Assembly (NCBI GenBank): GCA_019236695.1
Contig: JAFAIN010000125.1
Coordinates: 1-33,332, forward strand
Direction: 5' to 3'
Length of the DNA stretch: 33,332 nt
Origin: Acidobacteriota bacterium
GTDB lineage: Bacteria > Acidobacteriota > Terriglobia > Terriglobales > Acidobacteriaceae
The notes below the pieces were generated by a model. It was given only the letters and a program-made list of their open reading frames with translations. It was not told the DNA's origin and ran no database searches. This document shows, in pieces, positions 7,107-12,645 of the stretch. The position numbers were made by a program, and so were the translations under genes. Positions within the stretch are counted from its first letter, which is position 1. Each line of letters opens with the position of its first letter.

Positions 7107-7481
7107 TTACACGCTGAACGACGAACCGCACCCGCACGTTGTCTTCACGTTGGGGTTCTCGAACTTGAAGCCGGCGCCTTCCAGCGTCTCCACGTAATCC
7201 ACGGTCGCGCCGTTCAGGTACATCACCGAGGTCGCATCCACGAACACCTTCAGGCCGTCGAAGTCGTACACTTTGTCCATCAGGCCGGCGCTGTTTTCGA
7301 ACGACATCGAATATTGGAAGCCGGAGCATCCGCCCCCCACCACGCCCACTCGCAGTCCGCTCGGAGCCGGATTCTGTTGCGCCATGATCTCCTTCACCTT
7401 ATTGACCGCCGTAGGCGTAAGGCTGATGGGCGGCGCCTTCTTGGCTGGCGCGATATTTGGATCGACTGTGGTGGTTGACAT
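7107..7481 (-). CDS. erpA: Iron-sulfur cluster insertion protein, HesB/IscA/ErpA family
   Basis: This 124-residue A-type carrier accepts Fe-S clusters from the assembly machinery and passes them to apoproteins in the cytoplasm. It has a short Ala/Pro-rich N-terminal tail, then ISLTPTAV.KVKEIM and the three invariant cysteines. They are C52 in GGGCSGFQY and C116 and C118 in TCGCGSSFSV, exactly as the family requires. Length is normal apart from about 15 extra N-terminal residues. The ATG at 7481 has GAGGAGA upstream and an extended -10 promoter (7508-7516). With its own promoter and terminator it is a one-gene transcript. No isc or suf genes are near. ErpA versus IscA cannot be separated with certainty by eye. 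Confidence 0.93.
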   Translation of the reverse strand: MSTTTVDPNIAPAKKAPPISLTPTAVNKVKEIMAQQNPAPSGLRVGVVGGGCSGFQYSMSFENSAGLMDKVYDFDGLKVFVDATSVMYLNGATVDYVETLEGAGFKFENPNVKTTCGCGSSFSV

Positions 7482-7619: not shown

Positions 7620-7647
7620 TTTTGCCTTCTGCCTTTTGCCTTTTACT
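7620..7647. repeat. Heptanucleotide tandem repeat (4 degenerate units)
   Basis: The units read TTTTGCC, TTCTGCC, TTTTGCC, TTTTACT. The array lies in the divergent gap between erpA and the small membrane-protein gene. The same unit occurs at 12660-12673. Confidence 0.7.
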
Positions 7648-7652
7648 TGGCC

Positions 7653-7658
7653 TATAAT
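7653..7658 (+). promoter_or_regulatory. Possible -10 box for the small membrane-protein gene
   Basis: A perfect TATAAT lies 99 bases before the ATG at 7758. No convincing -35 is seen; the upstream DNA is the heptamer repeat. Confidence 0.35.
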
Positions 7659-7757
7659 TCAATTCAAGGCCCCCATACCCAGGTCCGTCGGCTTCGGGAT
7701 TGGCCGGCGCACCCTCGTACGCGGGACTGGCTTGATCAATCTGTGCGGGAGGTGCAT

Positions 7758-8039
7758 ATGGCATTCCTCAACCAGCATCTTACGGCTTTGTTGATCGCCT
7801 GGGCCTGCTTGACCACCGTCCTGGTGCTGCTGCTCATCTATCGCAGCACGCTGAGCATCCATGAGGACGACCAGCTCTTCCTTGACGAATCCGAAGCCCA
7901 CATGCAGCGCGAGCAAATGGAAAACACCAGGCGCATGGAACGGCTCACGCCGTTCGTGCGTATTTTCGGCGCCGCTTCCGGCTTGCTCATCCTCTGCATC
8001 GCGGTCATCTGGGTCTACGCCGGCCTCGCCAACCAGTAG
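7758..8039 (+). CDS. Small two-helix membrane protein, unknown function
   Basis: This is a 93-residue protein with two predicted membrane helices, at about residues 8-28 (LLIAWACLTTVLVLLLIY) and 70-90 (ASGLLILCIAVIWVYAGL). They are separated by a very acidic and polar loop (EDDQLFLDESEAHMQREQMENTRRMERL). The ATG at 7758 is chosen because GGGAGGTG sits just upstream at good spacing. A longer frame from 7647 has no ribosome site and adds a charged stretch before the first helix. I do not recognise the family. The gene stands alone between erpA and tRNA-Leu. Confidence 0.75.
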   Translation: MAFLNQHLTALLIAWACLTTVLVLLLIYRSTLSIHEDDQLFLDESEAHMQREQMENTRRMERLTPFVRIFGAASGLLILCIAVIWVYAGLANQ

Positions 8040-8185: not shown

Positions 8186-8271
8186 TGGTGCCGGGAACAG
8201 GACTTGAACCTGCACGCCTTTTGGGCACTGGATCCTAAGTCCAGCGCGTCTGCCAATTCCGCCATCCCGGC
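8186..8271 (-). tRNA. tRNA-Leu, anticodon UAG (reads CUA)
   Basis: On the minus strand the 5' acceptor GCCGGGA pairs with TCCCGGC, followed by discriminator A and an encoded CCA. The anticodon stem CTGGA/TCCAG encloses the loop CTTAGGA, so the anticodon is UAG. The D-arm GGCGGAATTGGCAGACGC is typical of Leu. A long variable arm and the T-loop GGTTCAAGTCC are visible. Total length is 86 bases with CCA, normal for this class II tRNA. Confidence 0.97.
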
Positions 8272-8450: not shown

Positions 8451-10235
8451 ATGGCATACGGGACCGCGAGCGCACCAGTATCTCGGCTGTGGCAGGCGGT
8501 TCTTTCGCTGTCGGATGCGGAACGCAAGACCCGCCGAAAGCGTCCTGCCACGCTGGCGTACGACGTTGACGAAGTTCCTCCCGCGTCCCTGTCCATTGCC
8601 CTGGCCTTGCAGCACGTGCTCGCAATGTCGGTGGGATGGATTTACGTGATCATCGCGGTGGACGCGATGGGCGGGACCGGCGGCCAGGCGCAAAGCCTCC
8701 TTCGCGTCTCGATGATCGTTTCCGGCCTGACCACAATCCTGCAGGCCCGGGGAGGCCGCCTGGGTTCCGGGTACCTTAACCCCGCCTCCTGCAGCCTGAC
8801 TTACCTCGCTCCCACCATCCTGGCTGTCCGTGTTGGCGGCTTTCCGCTCGTCTTTGGAATGACGGCGATGAACGGAGCCTTCACTGCAGTGCTCTCGCGA
8901 TTTCTTCGCCGCCTGCGCATCCTTTTTCCACCCGATGTCACCGGCCTGATCGTCTCCATCGTGGGCATCCAGCTCGTCGCCATCGGATGCCCGAAACTGC
9001 TCGGGCGCTCTCCTTCGCACCCCGACGCGTACATGCCCGCCACATTTCTTGGCCTCATTACCCTGTTCGCAATGATCGCGCCCAGCGTCTGGAGCAAGGG
9101 CAGGCTGCGGTTATTTCCCATCCTCATCGGCCTGGCCGTCGGTCATGTTGTAGCGCTGTACATGGGCGTGCTCACCTGGTCTCAAATCCGCGCGCAGTGG
9201 GCGCAGCCGCTCTTCGGGCTGCCCCACCGCATCTCCGGAGGAATGGCTTTCCGCCCTTCGCTGTTGATCCCGTTTCTCGCAATCGGTGTTGCCGCCACCC
9301 TGAAGACCGTTGGCGACGTGACCCTGTGCCAGAAGATGAATGACGCCGAGTGGAGGCGGACCGACATGGAATCGGTGAGCGGCGGCGTGATGGCAAATTC
9401 CATCGGCACCATGACGTCGGGCCTGTTGGGTGGATTTGCCCAGAACAATGCGTCGGCATGCCTGGGCGTGGAATTGGCAACCGGCGTCACCAGCCGCGCG
9501 CTGGCCGTTCCCGCAGGTCTCATCGTAGGGTTGCTGGCCTTTGTCCCGGGTCTGGCCGGCACCTTCGCCCTGATGCCGCAGCCCGTCATGGGCGCTTTGC
9601 TCATCTACTCCACTTGCTTCCTCATGCTCGGCGGGCTGCAGGTAATGACCGCCCGCATGTTGGACGCGCGCCGCATCTTTGCCATCGGCATCGCGCTCGT
9701 GTTCGGAATCAGCGTTGAGGTGGCGCCCGAGCTTTATCGCAATGCCCCCGAGTTGATCCGGCCCATCTTTGCCTCTTCCACTGCGCTGGCCACCATCATC
9801 GCCGTAGCCCTCAGCCTGCTGTTTCGCATTGGCCTCAAGAAGGTTAGCCGGCTCGATCTGCAGTACGGCAAAGACAATCTCGGAGCCATCAGCCGCTTCA
9901 TGGAGGATCAGGGCTCCGCGTGGGGAATGCGCCATGACGTGGTGCAGCGCGGCATTGACGCGGTCTACGAATTCGTCACCAACGCCGGTGACTTGCAATT
10001 GCGATCTCCCGAGATAATTGTCCGAGCGCAGTTCGATGAGTTCCATCTCGACATCGAAATTCAATACGACGGCCCGACCATCGAACTCGCGGCAAGAATG
10101 CCGACCGTGGAAGAACTCGCGGCCGGCACAGGCGTGGCATTGTTATCGCAATACATGATCCGGGAATCAGCCGATGACGTTCGCATGAAGCGGGCTGGCG
10201 ACAGTTCAGTGTTGTGCCTGCATTTTGAACATTAA
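8451..10235 (+). CDS. NCS2-family nucleobase permease relative with C-terminal anti-sigma-like ATPase domain
   Basis: This 594-residue protein has two parts. Residues 45-460 are a 14-helix-type NCS2 (uracil/xanthine permease) transporter, with the QH motif (Q54, H55) in LALQHVLAM, the GSGYLNPASC loop, PPDVTGLIV and the QNN(A) signature (Q331-A334) followed by TGVTSR. The usual TM8 glutamate (E..GD) is a lysine here (TLKTVGD, K285). Residues 475-594 are cytoplasmic and resemble the RsbW/SpoIIAB-type histidine-kinase-like ATPase fold. They contain AVYEFVTNA (ExxxN, E507/N511, the N box), a strand ending in YDGP (D540, G541), a GTGVALL glycine turn (559-565), and an 'RESADDVRM...SSVLCLHFEH' ending. 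The transporter call is firm and the ATPase call is by pattern. No strong ribosome site is visible. The gene stands alone, flanked by tRNA-Leu. Confidence 0.9.
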   Translation: MAYGTASAPVSRLWQAVLSLSDAERKTRRKRPATLAYDVDEVPPASLSIALALQHVLAMSVGWIYVIIAVDAMGGTGGQAQSLLRVSMIVSGLTTILQARGGRLGSGYLNPASCSLTYLAPTILAVRVGGFPLVFGMTAMNGAFTAVLSRFLRRLRILFPPDVTGLIVSIVGIQLVAIGCPKLLGRSPSHPDAYMPATFLGLITLFAMIAPSVWSKGRLRLFPILIGLAVGHVVALYMGVLTWSQIRAQWAQPLFGLPHRISGGMAFRPSLLIPFLAIGVAATLKTVGDVTLCQKMNDAEWRRTDMESVSGGVMANSIGTMTSGLLGGFAQNNASACLGVELATGVTSRALAVPAGLIVGLLAFVPGLAGTFALMPQPVMGALLIYSTCFLMLGGLQVMTARMLDARRIFAIGIALVFGISVEVAPELYRNAPELIRPIFASSTALATIIAVALSLLFRIGLKKVSRLDLQYGKDNLGAISRFMEDQGSAWGMRHDVVQRGIDAVYEFVTNAGDLQLRSPEIIVRAQFDEFHLDIEIQYDGPTIELAARMPTVEELAAGTGVALLSQYMIRESADDVRMKRAGDSSVLCLHFEH

Positions 10236-10421: not shown

Positions 10422-11468
10422 TTACGTCAAAGGCGGTTGTTGCGGCTGGGTAGGCGTTGCCTGCCCCTGTCCGGTCGGAACCGGCACAGCCATGCCGGGC
10501 GCGCCTGTGGTTTGCGAGCCCACCGGCGGAGCCCCAACCCCCTGCGCCGGTCCGCGTGCGTCGAGGCGCGGGTCGTAAATGAAGGCCCATTCGTTGTAGT
10601 GGTTCTTCTCGTTGAACTCGCGAATCGATTGCTCGGTGCTCGTGCTCGCCACCCCAATGATGGCTCCGCCCCCTATCTGTTGCCCGGGCGCGCCAAAGCC
10701 GGTCGATACGTTGCCCGGCGTTGCAAGGCTGCTGGCCGGCGTCATCCCGCTCCCGTTGTTCGCCTGCTGGCTGGCGCTCTGCTGGTTCGTATTTCCGCCA
10801 GAGCTCTGATTTCCGGGGTCTTGCTGGCCGGTCGCCGTGCTGGCGGCCGTGAGCAACTCCGCTACCACAATGCCGCCCACGCCCGGTTTGATCTGGGTTG
10901 TGCCGCCGCTCAACTGCCCCATGCTCCCGGCCGACGCCTGGTTGGTCGAGCCGGATGTCGAACCCAACGTTGACCCGAAACCCGAACCCGAGCTCATGCT
11001 GCTTGAGAAGCCGCCCGCGGCTGGATTCGTTCCTGCGGTCCCCGCCGGCATGCCGGCCGGGGTAAACGGTGATTGTGCGCCCGGTATCCCCGGGCCTCCC
11101 GAGAGTTGCCAATTCGGAATTGTGGCTTCGCCCTGGTGAACCAGTTTCCAGTCGTCTTTCCCCGTAACCGGGTCAACGTATCGTTTTCGGAGAAAGCGCA
11201 CGCCGTTGGTTTCGACCAGTTGGTCCATGTTGCCGGGATAACGATGGAACTTCTTGTAGTAGCGCTTCACCGCTTCGGCATACTGCTTGCCGCGAAAAAT
11301 CAGTTCCGCCTCGCGCTGCCGCCTGATCCGGTTGGAGATGGTGGGCGCCGCCACCGCCGCCGCAATGCTCAACAGCGTCACCGCAATCAGCAGCACCAGC
11401 AGAAGATAGCCCGATTGCGCGCGCCGTCGCCTTGCCTTCGATTCTCGGTTCTTCGCTGGGTTGGTCAT
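10422..11468 (-). CDS. Type II secretion/type IV pilus pseudopilin-like protein with low-complexity tail
   Basis: This is a 348-residue protein with a prepilin-type N-terminus. A basic leader ends in QSG (G20), followed by YLLLVLLIAVTLLSIAAAVAAP, the hydrophobic helix processed by prepilin peptidase. The globular part (about 45-120) resembles GspG-like pseudopilins: R.REAELIFRGKQYAEAVKRYYKKFHRYPGNMDQLVET and RYVDPVTGKDDWKLV. The usual Glu at +5 of the mature protein is absent (Val). After residue 120 comes a long Gly/Ser/Gln/Asn/Pro-rich stretch of low complexity, then a short conserved patch ('SIREFNEKNHYNEWAFIYDPRLD'-like; only part quoted: IREFNEKNHYNEWAF) near 280, and a Pro/Gln-rich end. 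It starts five bases after the stop of the GspC/PilP-like gene, so the two are one transcript. It is probably an envelope protein; its exact machine is unknown. Confidence 0.82.
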   Translation of the reverse strand: MTNPAKNRESKARRRRAQSGYLLLVLLIAVTLLSIAAAVAAPTISNRIRRQREAELIFRGKQYAEAVKRYYKKFHRYPGNMDQLVETNGVRFLRKRYVDPVTGKDDWKLVHQGEATIPNWQLSGGPGIPGAQSPFTPAGMPAGTAGTNPAAGGFSSSMSSGSGFGSTLGSTSGSTNQASAGSMGQLSGGTTQIKPGVGGIVVAELLTAASTATGQQDPGNQSSGGNTNQQSASQQANNGSGMTPASSLATPGNVSTGFGAPGQQIGGGAIIGVASTSTEQSIREFNEKNHYNEWAFIYDPRLDARGPAQGVGAPPVGSQTTGAPGMAVPVPTGQGQATPTQPQQPPLT

Positions 11469-11473
11469 GCTGG

Positions 11474-12082
11474 CTACTGCGTCATCAGAATGCGCTGCGT
11501 GTTGTTGTTCAGCATGTCCTGAATCTCTACCGAATCGTTGTTGATCTTCAGGACCTTGTAGCGCCGGTCCACAATGTCGCCCTCCCGCGCAATGAACGTA
11601 TCATCGCCCTCCGCCAGGAAAACCTGCCTTGCCTGGCCGGGCCGGTTGGCGAAGCCGAAAAACTTTAAATTAATGGGCGGCGGCGGGGGCGGTCCCGTGT
11701 TGGCCGGCGCCGGTGGAGGCGGCGGGGCCGTCGTCCTCGGATCCGGAATCTTCTCGACTACTTTGATTGGCTCATCCTGAAAGATGTTTCGTCCGTTGCC
11801 GTTGTAGGCAATCTGCTCGCTCAGTTTCAGCAGGTCGAGCCGCAGGCCCGGTGCTCCCGTGGGCAGCGTGATGGTCGAGTTCTTCCGCTGGGACCGCGGG
11901 GTAACGGTCGTGCGCTGCGCCACCCCGGGCTCCTCCGGGGCTGAATTCGCCGCAACCGGGGCTGCCGGAGCCGCCGCCGCGCCCGAATCCGAGGTGAACT
12001 GATGAATTGCAAACCACGCCGCAAAGGCCGCCAGCCCCAAGGCAATCGCCGTCTGCTTCTTGTTTTCGGTTCCCAGCTTCAC
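11474..12082 (-). CDS. GspC/PilP-like inner-membrane protein
   Basis: This is a 202-residue protein with one N-terminal membrane helix (about 10-28, TAIALGLAAFAAWFAIHQF), an Ala/Pro-rich periplasmic stretch, and a region with YNGNGRNIFQ typical of GspC or PilP-like proteins. A poly-proline linker (PPPPPAPANTGPPPPPP) follows, then a small beta domain (about 140-202: LKFFGFANRPGQARQVFLAE, FIAREGDIVDRRYKVLKIN, SVEIQDMLNNNTQRILM). That last domain follows the GspC homology-region/PilP pattern, which in known systems links inner-membrane and outer-membrane parts of secretion or pilus machines. It sits directly upstream of the pseudopilin-like gene. The assignment rests on pattern and neighbours, not on a close match. 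Confidence 0.7.
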   Translation of the reverse strand: MKLGTENKKQTAIALGLAAFAAWFAIHQFTSDSGAAAAPAAPVAANSAPEEPGVAQRTTVTPRSQRKNSTITLPTGAPGLRLDLLKLSEQIAYNGNGRNIFQDEPIKVVEKIPDPRTTAPPPPPAPANTGPPPPPPINLKFFGFANRPGQARQVFLAEGDDTFIAREGDIVDRRYKVLKINNDSVEIQDMLNNNTQRILMTQ

Positions 12083-12177
12083 GGCGACACCATGTCCTCA
12101 TGACCTAAGACGCGAATGCACAGCTTTCGTTCCACGATTGGGACTGGCGTTATTCTAGCGCACCAACAGGCGAGACT

Positions 12178-12645
12178 TTATTGATGCAGGGCAAACGCTG
12201 GCCAAGCTTGAGGATTTGTGGTTGTGTCATCCCGACTCAAGGGAGGGAGCTGCACAGGTCCCAGCGAACCGCGCCTGCCGCCTTTACCGCCGGCATGGAA
12301 TTGCCCGCTCTCCGGCAAGGCCAGAATCTCAATCTGCCGCGCCCGCCACAGCCCGTCTCCGTTTTCCTCGGCCAGCACGCGAATCTCCGCGCCAGCCTTC
12401 AGGCTGTCGGTTGCCCGTTTTTGCCGTTTCTCAGGCGGGATGTATTCGGAATAAACCACACGGGCTTGGCCGACCTCCACCTTGCGGAGCAGTCCGTTAC
12501 GTCCCATGACTAGAATCGTGCCCGGAACTGCCTGTGCCGGATCCGGCGCTTCGATAATGCGGCCTCGAAATGTCGCTGGCGTAGCCGCAAAGGACGCACC
12601 CGCCACCATCACCAGCGTCAGCCTGGAAACAACTCCCACATCCAC
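12178..12645 (-). CDS. Small exported protein of unknown function
   Basis: This is a 155-residue protein with a likely signal peptide at residues 6-21 (VSRLTLVMVAGASFAA). The body has beta-rich text: FRGRIIEAPDPAQAVPGTILVMGRNGLLRKVEVGQARVVYSEYIP, then a basic stretch, then AGAEIRVLAEENGDGLWRARQIEIL, which looks like a small OB-type or SH3-type barrel. The tail is polar. The frame starts at a GTG at 12645 with no strong ribosome site, so the start is uncertain. It is in line with the GspC/PilP-like and pseudopilin-like genes downstream (gap 95 bases) and may belong to the same envelope unit. I do not recognise the family. Confidence 0.65.
   Translation of the reverse strand: MDVGVVSRLTLVMVAGASFAATPATFRGRIIEAPDPAQAVPGTILVMGRNGLLRKVEVGQARVVYSEYIPPEKRQKRATDSLKAGAEIRVLAEENGDGLWRARQIEILALPESGQFHAGGKGGRRGSLGPVQLPPLSRDDTTTNPQAWPAFALHQ

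Follow-up and report, generated by a model that had tools for sequence, protein, structure and literature searches.

A pseudopilin without Glu5 and its GspC/PilP-like partner as the very probable displaced 3' end of a gspFE-pilMNO operon in a draft Acidobacteriota genome

The stretch of DNA analysed here (the window, 33,332 nucleotides, contig C155 of the assembly) carries two adjoining minus-strand genes that encode a pseudopilin and a GspC/PilP-like inner-membrane protein (Table 1). Both open reading frames are intact, and the pseudopilin gene begins 5 bases downstream of its partner, confirming the tight coupling described in an earlier note made from the sequence. Neither protein matched a Pfam family at E ≤ 1, a comparison of their profiles with each other showed no relation, and the surroundings of the pair yielded neither a sigma-70-like promoter nor a terminator. 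The window holds no gene for a secretion ATPase, a platform protein or a secretin. The absence of GspE, GspD, GspF and PilQ from it had been correctly noted, and all T2SSE and Secretin matches of this genome lie on contigs other than C155.

Table 1. Genes and features of the window around the pseudopilin gene
Feature	Position	Strand	Remark
IscA/HesB-like gene	7107-7481		
Small membrane protein	7647-8039		
tRNA-Leu	8186-8271		
Glu5-less pseudopilin, 348 aa	10422-11468	-	intact ORF
GspC/PilP-like inner-membrane protein, 202 aa	11474-12082	-	intact ORF
Break point	12083-12177	.	155-aa gene abuts PilP-like gene here; pilO ends just upstream in relatives
Small exported protein, 155 aa	12178-12645	-	weak DUF5666 match

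The identification of the pair as a pseudopilin and a GspC/PilP-like partner proved right. The pseudopilin has a basic leader of 20 residues ending in Gly20, after which the mature protein starts with YLLLVLLIAV and has Val at +5. Glu is absent from this position in all 47 members of one alignment of homologues (A7) and in all 18 of another (A4); the missing Glu, which the earlier note had pointed out, is therefore a family trait and not decay. An AlphaFold2 model gives a confident long alpha-1 helix (residues 9-74) and a confident small head, which is GspG-like, together with a disordered C-terminal tail. Between the first and second strands of the head lies a Gly/Ser/Ala/Thr/Gln-rich insertion of about 143 residues (121-263), after which the protein ends in a 44-residue tail. 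The long Gly/Ser/Gln/Asn-rich tail of the earlier note is for the most part this insertion in the head. The aligned stretch with this insertion varies from 53 to 229 residues among homologues. BLASTP matches the protein to a GspG-like pseudopilin encoded on contig C128 of the same genome (36% over 109 aa, E = 7e-17). Foldseek returned pilins, weakly (E = 0.41), and nothing else, and a PDB sequence search found mostly N-terminal pilin helices. GspK is the Glu5-less minor pseudopilin at the tip of the pseudopilus. The window protein resembles it in lacking Glu5, and the N-terminus of one homologue weakly matches the NCBIfam GspK model (E = 6e-4); it differs from GspK in its relationship to GspG-like pseudopilins and in the long low-complexity insertion, and a T2SSK domain match is absent from this genome.

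The AlphaFold2 model of the PilP-like protein, built from 55 sequences, has a single N-terminal helix (residues 8-31), a disordered proline-rich linker and a C-terminal six-strand barrel predicted with pLDDT values of 93-98 (residues 140-199). The best Foldseek match is GspC in the GspC-GspD complex (3oss_C; TM-score 0.78 by target length, rmsd 2.0, probability 1.00, E = 0.0094), and PilP structures come next in the list, nearly as good; the short alignment, of only about 65 residues, accounts for the modest E-values. The predicted fold agrees with the GspC/PilP-like barrel behind a proline-rich linker that had been proposed. A GspC HR domain is supported by the fold match and only weakly matched in sequence, and a PDB sequence search with the profile of the protein returned nothing relevant. 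Helix 8-31 is a transmembrane (TM) helix, and the protein has no Cys lipobox of the kind that marks the PilP lipoprotein of type IVa pili.

In relatives, the pair forms the 3' end of an operon with the order gspF-gspE-pilM-pilN-pilO-[GspC/PilP-like]-[pseudopilin]. The PilP-like protein was found in 58 of 61 sampled genomes and, in a profile search, in 186 of 200 genomes among the matches listed. All 20 relatives retrieved had at least part of the operon, and 79 of 80 loci from named organisms had at least the PilP-like and pseudopilin genes, the exception being locus L109. Loci with this order, in full or in part, come from Silvibacterium bohemicum, Acidicapsa dinghuensis, Terracidiphilus gabretensis and a complete Acidobacteriaceae genome, among others. 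A LolA gene and an ABC transporter set often precede the operon; an IscA/HesB gene and a gene for a small membrane protein often follow it, joined in G001, the other member of the genus, by tRNA-Leu. Pfam and NCBIfam models recognise T2SSF, T2SSE with MshEN, and PilN in the operon, and PilM and T2SSM (PilO) below threshold. The ATPase scores nearly equally as GspE and PilB, both below the cut-offs, and a GspE/GspF tree whose references came from E. coli K-12 only did not classify the system. The earlier note had regarded the pair as an orphan, perhaps an accessory pilus module or a small novel envelope complex, and had named homologues lying always inside a complete type II or type IV pilus cluster as what would speak against this. 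The neighbourhood survey found largely that, with the secretin at a separate locus in relatives too, and the orphan reading does not stand. We conclude that the two genes are the 3' end of this operon, displaced from the rest (probability about 0.9), and hence belong to machinery of a familiar type and not to a novel envelope complex.

The small exported protein upstream of the pair had been proposed as the third member of the unit. Homologues occur in 11 of 61 genomes, and in the four relatives compared (G001, G002, G005 and G012) the gene directly adjoins that for inositol-phosphate synthase, as it does in the window, on a contig other than that of the pilus operon. By its gene context, the 155-aa protein belongs with inositol-phosphate synthase and is not part of the machine, and its position beside the pair here is the result of the break. 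A free-standing envelope complex of pseudopilin, PilP-like protein and 155-aa protein would account for the adjacency and shared orientation of the three genes in the window, but the relatives place the pair in the gspFE-pilMNO operon and the 155-aa gene in the inositol-phosphate synthase locus; this neighbourhood refutes the idea, and we consider it extremely improbable.

The earlier note had seen no secretion machinery with the pair; a search of the rest of the genome located five partner genes on another contig. GspF, GspE, PilM, PilN and PilO are encoded intact and in order on contig C169 (locus L058, 8840-13977), with 66-94% identity to G001, and unrelated RsbW-like and STAS genes follow pilO. 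Two genes for near-identical PilA-like prepilins with Glu5 (L058, 2924-3421 and 4458-4934) precede this cluster's ABC transporter and LolA genes. One of the four secretins of the genome, on C128 (L068, 1641-4424), has N-terminal TPR, secretin and C-terminal cohesin domains and is followed by two GspG-like pseudopilins with Glu5, a locus kept together in all nine relatives checked. Judging from the GspG relationship of the window pseudopilin, this secretin and the Glu5-bearing pseudopilins probably belong to the same machine as the operon. To our knowledge, TPR and cohesin on a secretin are an unusual combination. A second secretin with N-terminal TPR and C-terminal cohesin (L066, 321-2867, on C299) is a paralogue of the C128 copy. 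A separate PilO-PilP-PilQ locus lies on C68, where PilP has a lipobox (identified by eye); PilB-like genes are found on C80, PilT-like genes on C12 and a single prepilin peptidase match on C285.

The operon is broken in this genome between pilO and the PilP-like gene, both of which are complete. The IscA gene, the small membrane protein gene and tRNA-Leu that flank the operon are still on C155, inverted and separated from the pair by a xanthine/uracil permease gene. In genome-wide profile searches, 128 of the 130 genomes that have both PilO and PilP among the matches listed carry them side by side; the other two are this genome and G015, in which pilO reaches the contig end. By the same kind of search, again among the matches listed, the PilP-like and pseudopilin genes are adjacent in 104 of 110 genomes. 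Inside long contigs, the pseudopilin gene has parted from the PilP-like gene in G138, G137, G086 and G080 and at locus L109, most of these being draft assemblies too; in G137 and G086 it remains beside the IscA gene, and the PilP-like gene ends another contig. Locus L109 itself, 18,285 bases of a Silvibacterium sp. metagenome-assembled genome (MAG), has a gene for a pseudopilin of this family at about 8962-9873, with no PilP-like gene or other operon gene within the stretch.

Breaks thus seem to recur at the 3' end of the operon. The break seen here might instead be an assembly artefact, with the operon contiguous in reality and a false join in C155 or C169, a possibility that bears on nothing but the break and is consistent with the pair being a displaced operon end. 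The genome is indeed a draft MAG (363 contigs, 87.8% complete), and among the matches listed no other genome shows the PilO-PilP break except the one with pilO at a contig end; yet the break falls between two complete genes, the flank with IscA and tRNA-Leu lies near the pair, though inverted, and pseudopilins are separated at the same 3' end in the five other cases. We give the artefact an appreciable but minority chance, and a true rearrangement is plausible given the breaks near the 3' end elsewhere.

The components belong to the type IV filament superfamily. With the type II secretion system (T2SS, GspC-M) the set shares GspE and GspF homologues, encoded with the GspC-like protein in one operon in relatives and on C169 here, a TM-anchored barrel like the GspC HR domain, a T2SSM-like protein and a Glu5-less pseudopilin; the secretin and Glu5-bearing, GspG-like major pseudopilin would be those of C128. 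It departs from the T2SS in that PilM and PilN are two genes in place of a single GspL, the GspC-like protein, at 202 residues, has no room for a PDZ domain, and the genes are dispersed over several loci. For the minor pseudopilins, Pfam profiles, which may miss divergent members, gave no GspI match in any of 41 genomes; for GspK they gave weak hits in 8 of the 41 and none in this genome. With type IVa pili (PilMNOPQ-PilB/C) it shares the order PilM-N-O-P, PilB and PilC homologues and the PilP-type fold. With no GspI match in the 41 genomes, no GspK match in this one, and PilM and PilN encoded apart, the set cannot be called a canonical T2SS; it is also distinct from the type IVa pilus of this genome. 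T2SS are described from a wider range of phyla by Denise et al. 2019 (PMC6668835); the word Acidobacteria was not encountered in that article, which does not count as evidence of absence.

Our estimate of about 0.9 refers to operon membership; that the machine secretes proteins is a separate claim, which we consider somewhat favoured. The operon could instead build a type IV pilus serving adhesion or motility. The separate PilM and PilN genes, as in type IVa pili, the PilA-like prepilins upstream of the C169 cluster and the near-equal GspE and PilB scores of the ATPase would all suit a pilus. However, a further set of PilO, lipoprotein PilP and PilQ is encoded on C68, with PilB-like and PilT-like genes elsewhere in the genome, and the window PilP-like protein is TM-anchored without a lipobox and has GspC as its best fold match. 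The operon itself showed no PilT-like gene. We hold a pilus to be rather unlikely.

If the machine is a secretion system, the operon would build the inner-membrane assembly platform of a T2SS-like apparatus of the class Terriglobia (Acidobacteriota). By analogy with GspC and PilP, the PilP-like protein would link platform and secretin, its TM helix tying it to PilM, PilN and PilO and its barrel docking on the secretin; PilP is known to interact with both PilQ and PilMNO, bridging them (PMC10191384). GspE and GspF would power and seat the filament, a short pseudopilus of Glu5-bearing GspG-like subunits. The window pseudopilin would start this filament or cap its tip, a role suggested by the finding that minor pilins form a tip complex with a capping subunit that lacks Glu5 (PMC10191384). 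The filament would move folded proteins through the secretin. More speculatively, this may be a dispersed T2SS-like machine specific to Acidobacteriota, with three pseudopilins of the GspG family, of which the one without Glu5 and with the long disordered head insertion replaced the GspI/J/K tip, and with a secretin ending in a cohesin domain; we regard this fuller version as doubtful.

An apparent orphan pseudopilin pair that is the displaced end of an operon is relevant to how secretion genes are annotated in draft assemblies. The T2SS-like set is widely conserved in Terriglobia and spread over several loci, and with both window proteins unmatched in Pfam it would be easily missed by models such as those of Abby et al.

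Two other genes of the window deserve mention. The xanthine/uracil permease (8451-10235, 594 aa) extends about 165 residues beyond the permease domain; this extension has no Pfam match and by eye resembles an ATPase/anti-sigma type domain. The protein encoded at 1971-2948 matches Phi_1 (E = 7e-29), phosphate-induced protein 1 of the EXORDIUM family, which is known mainly from plants.
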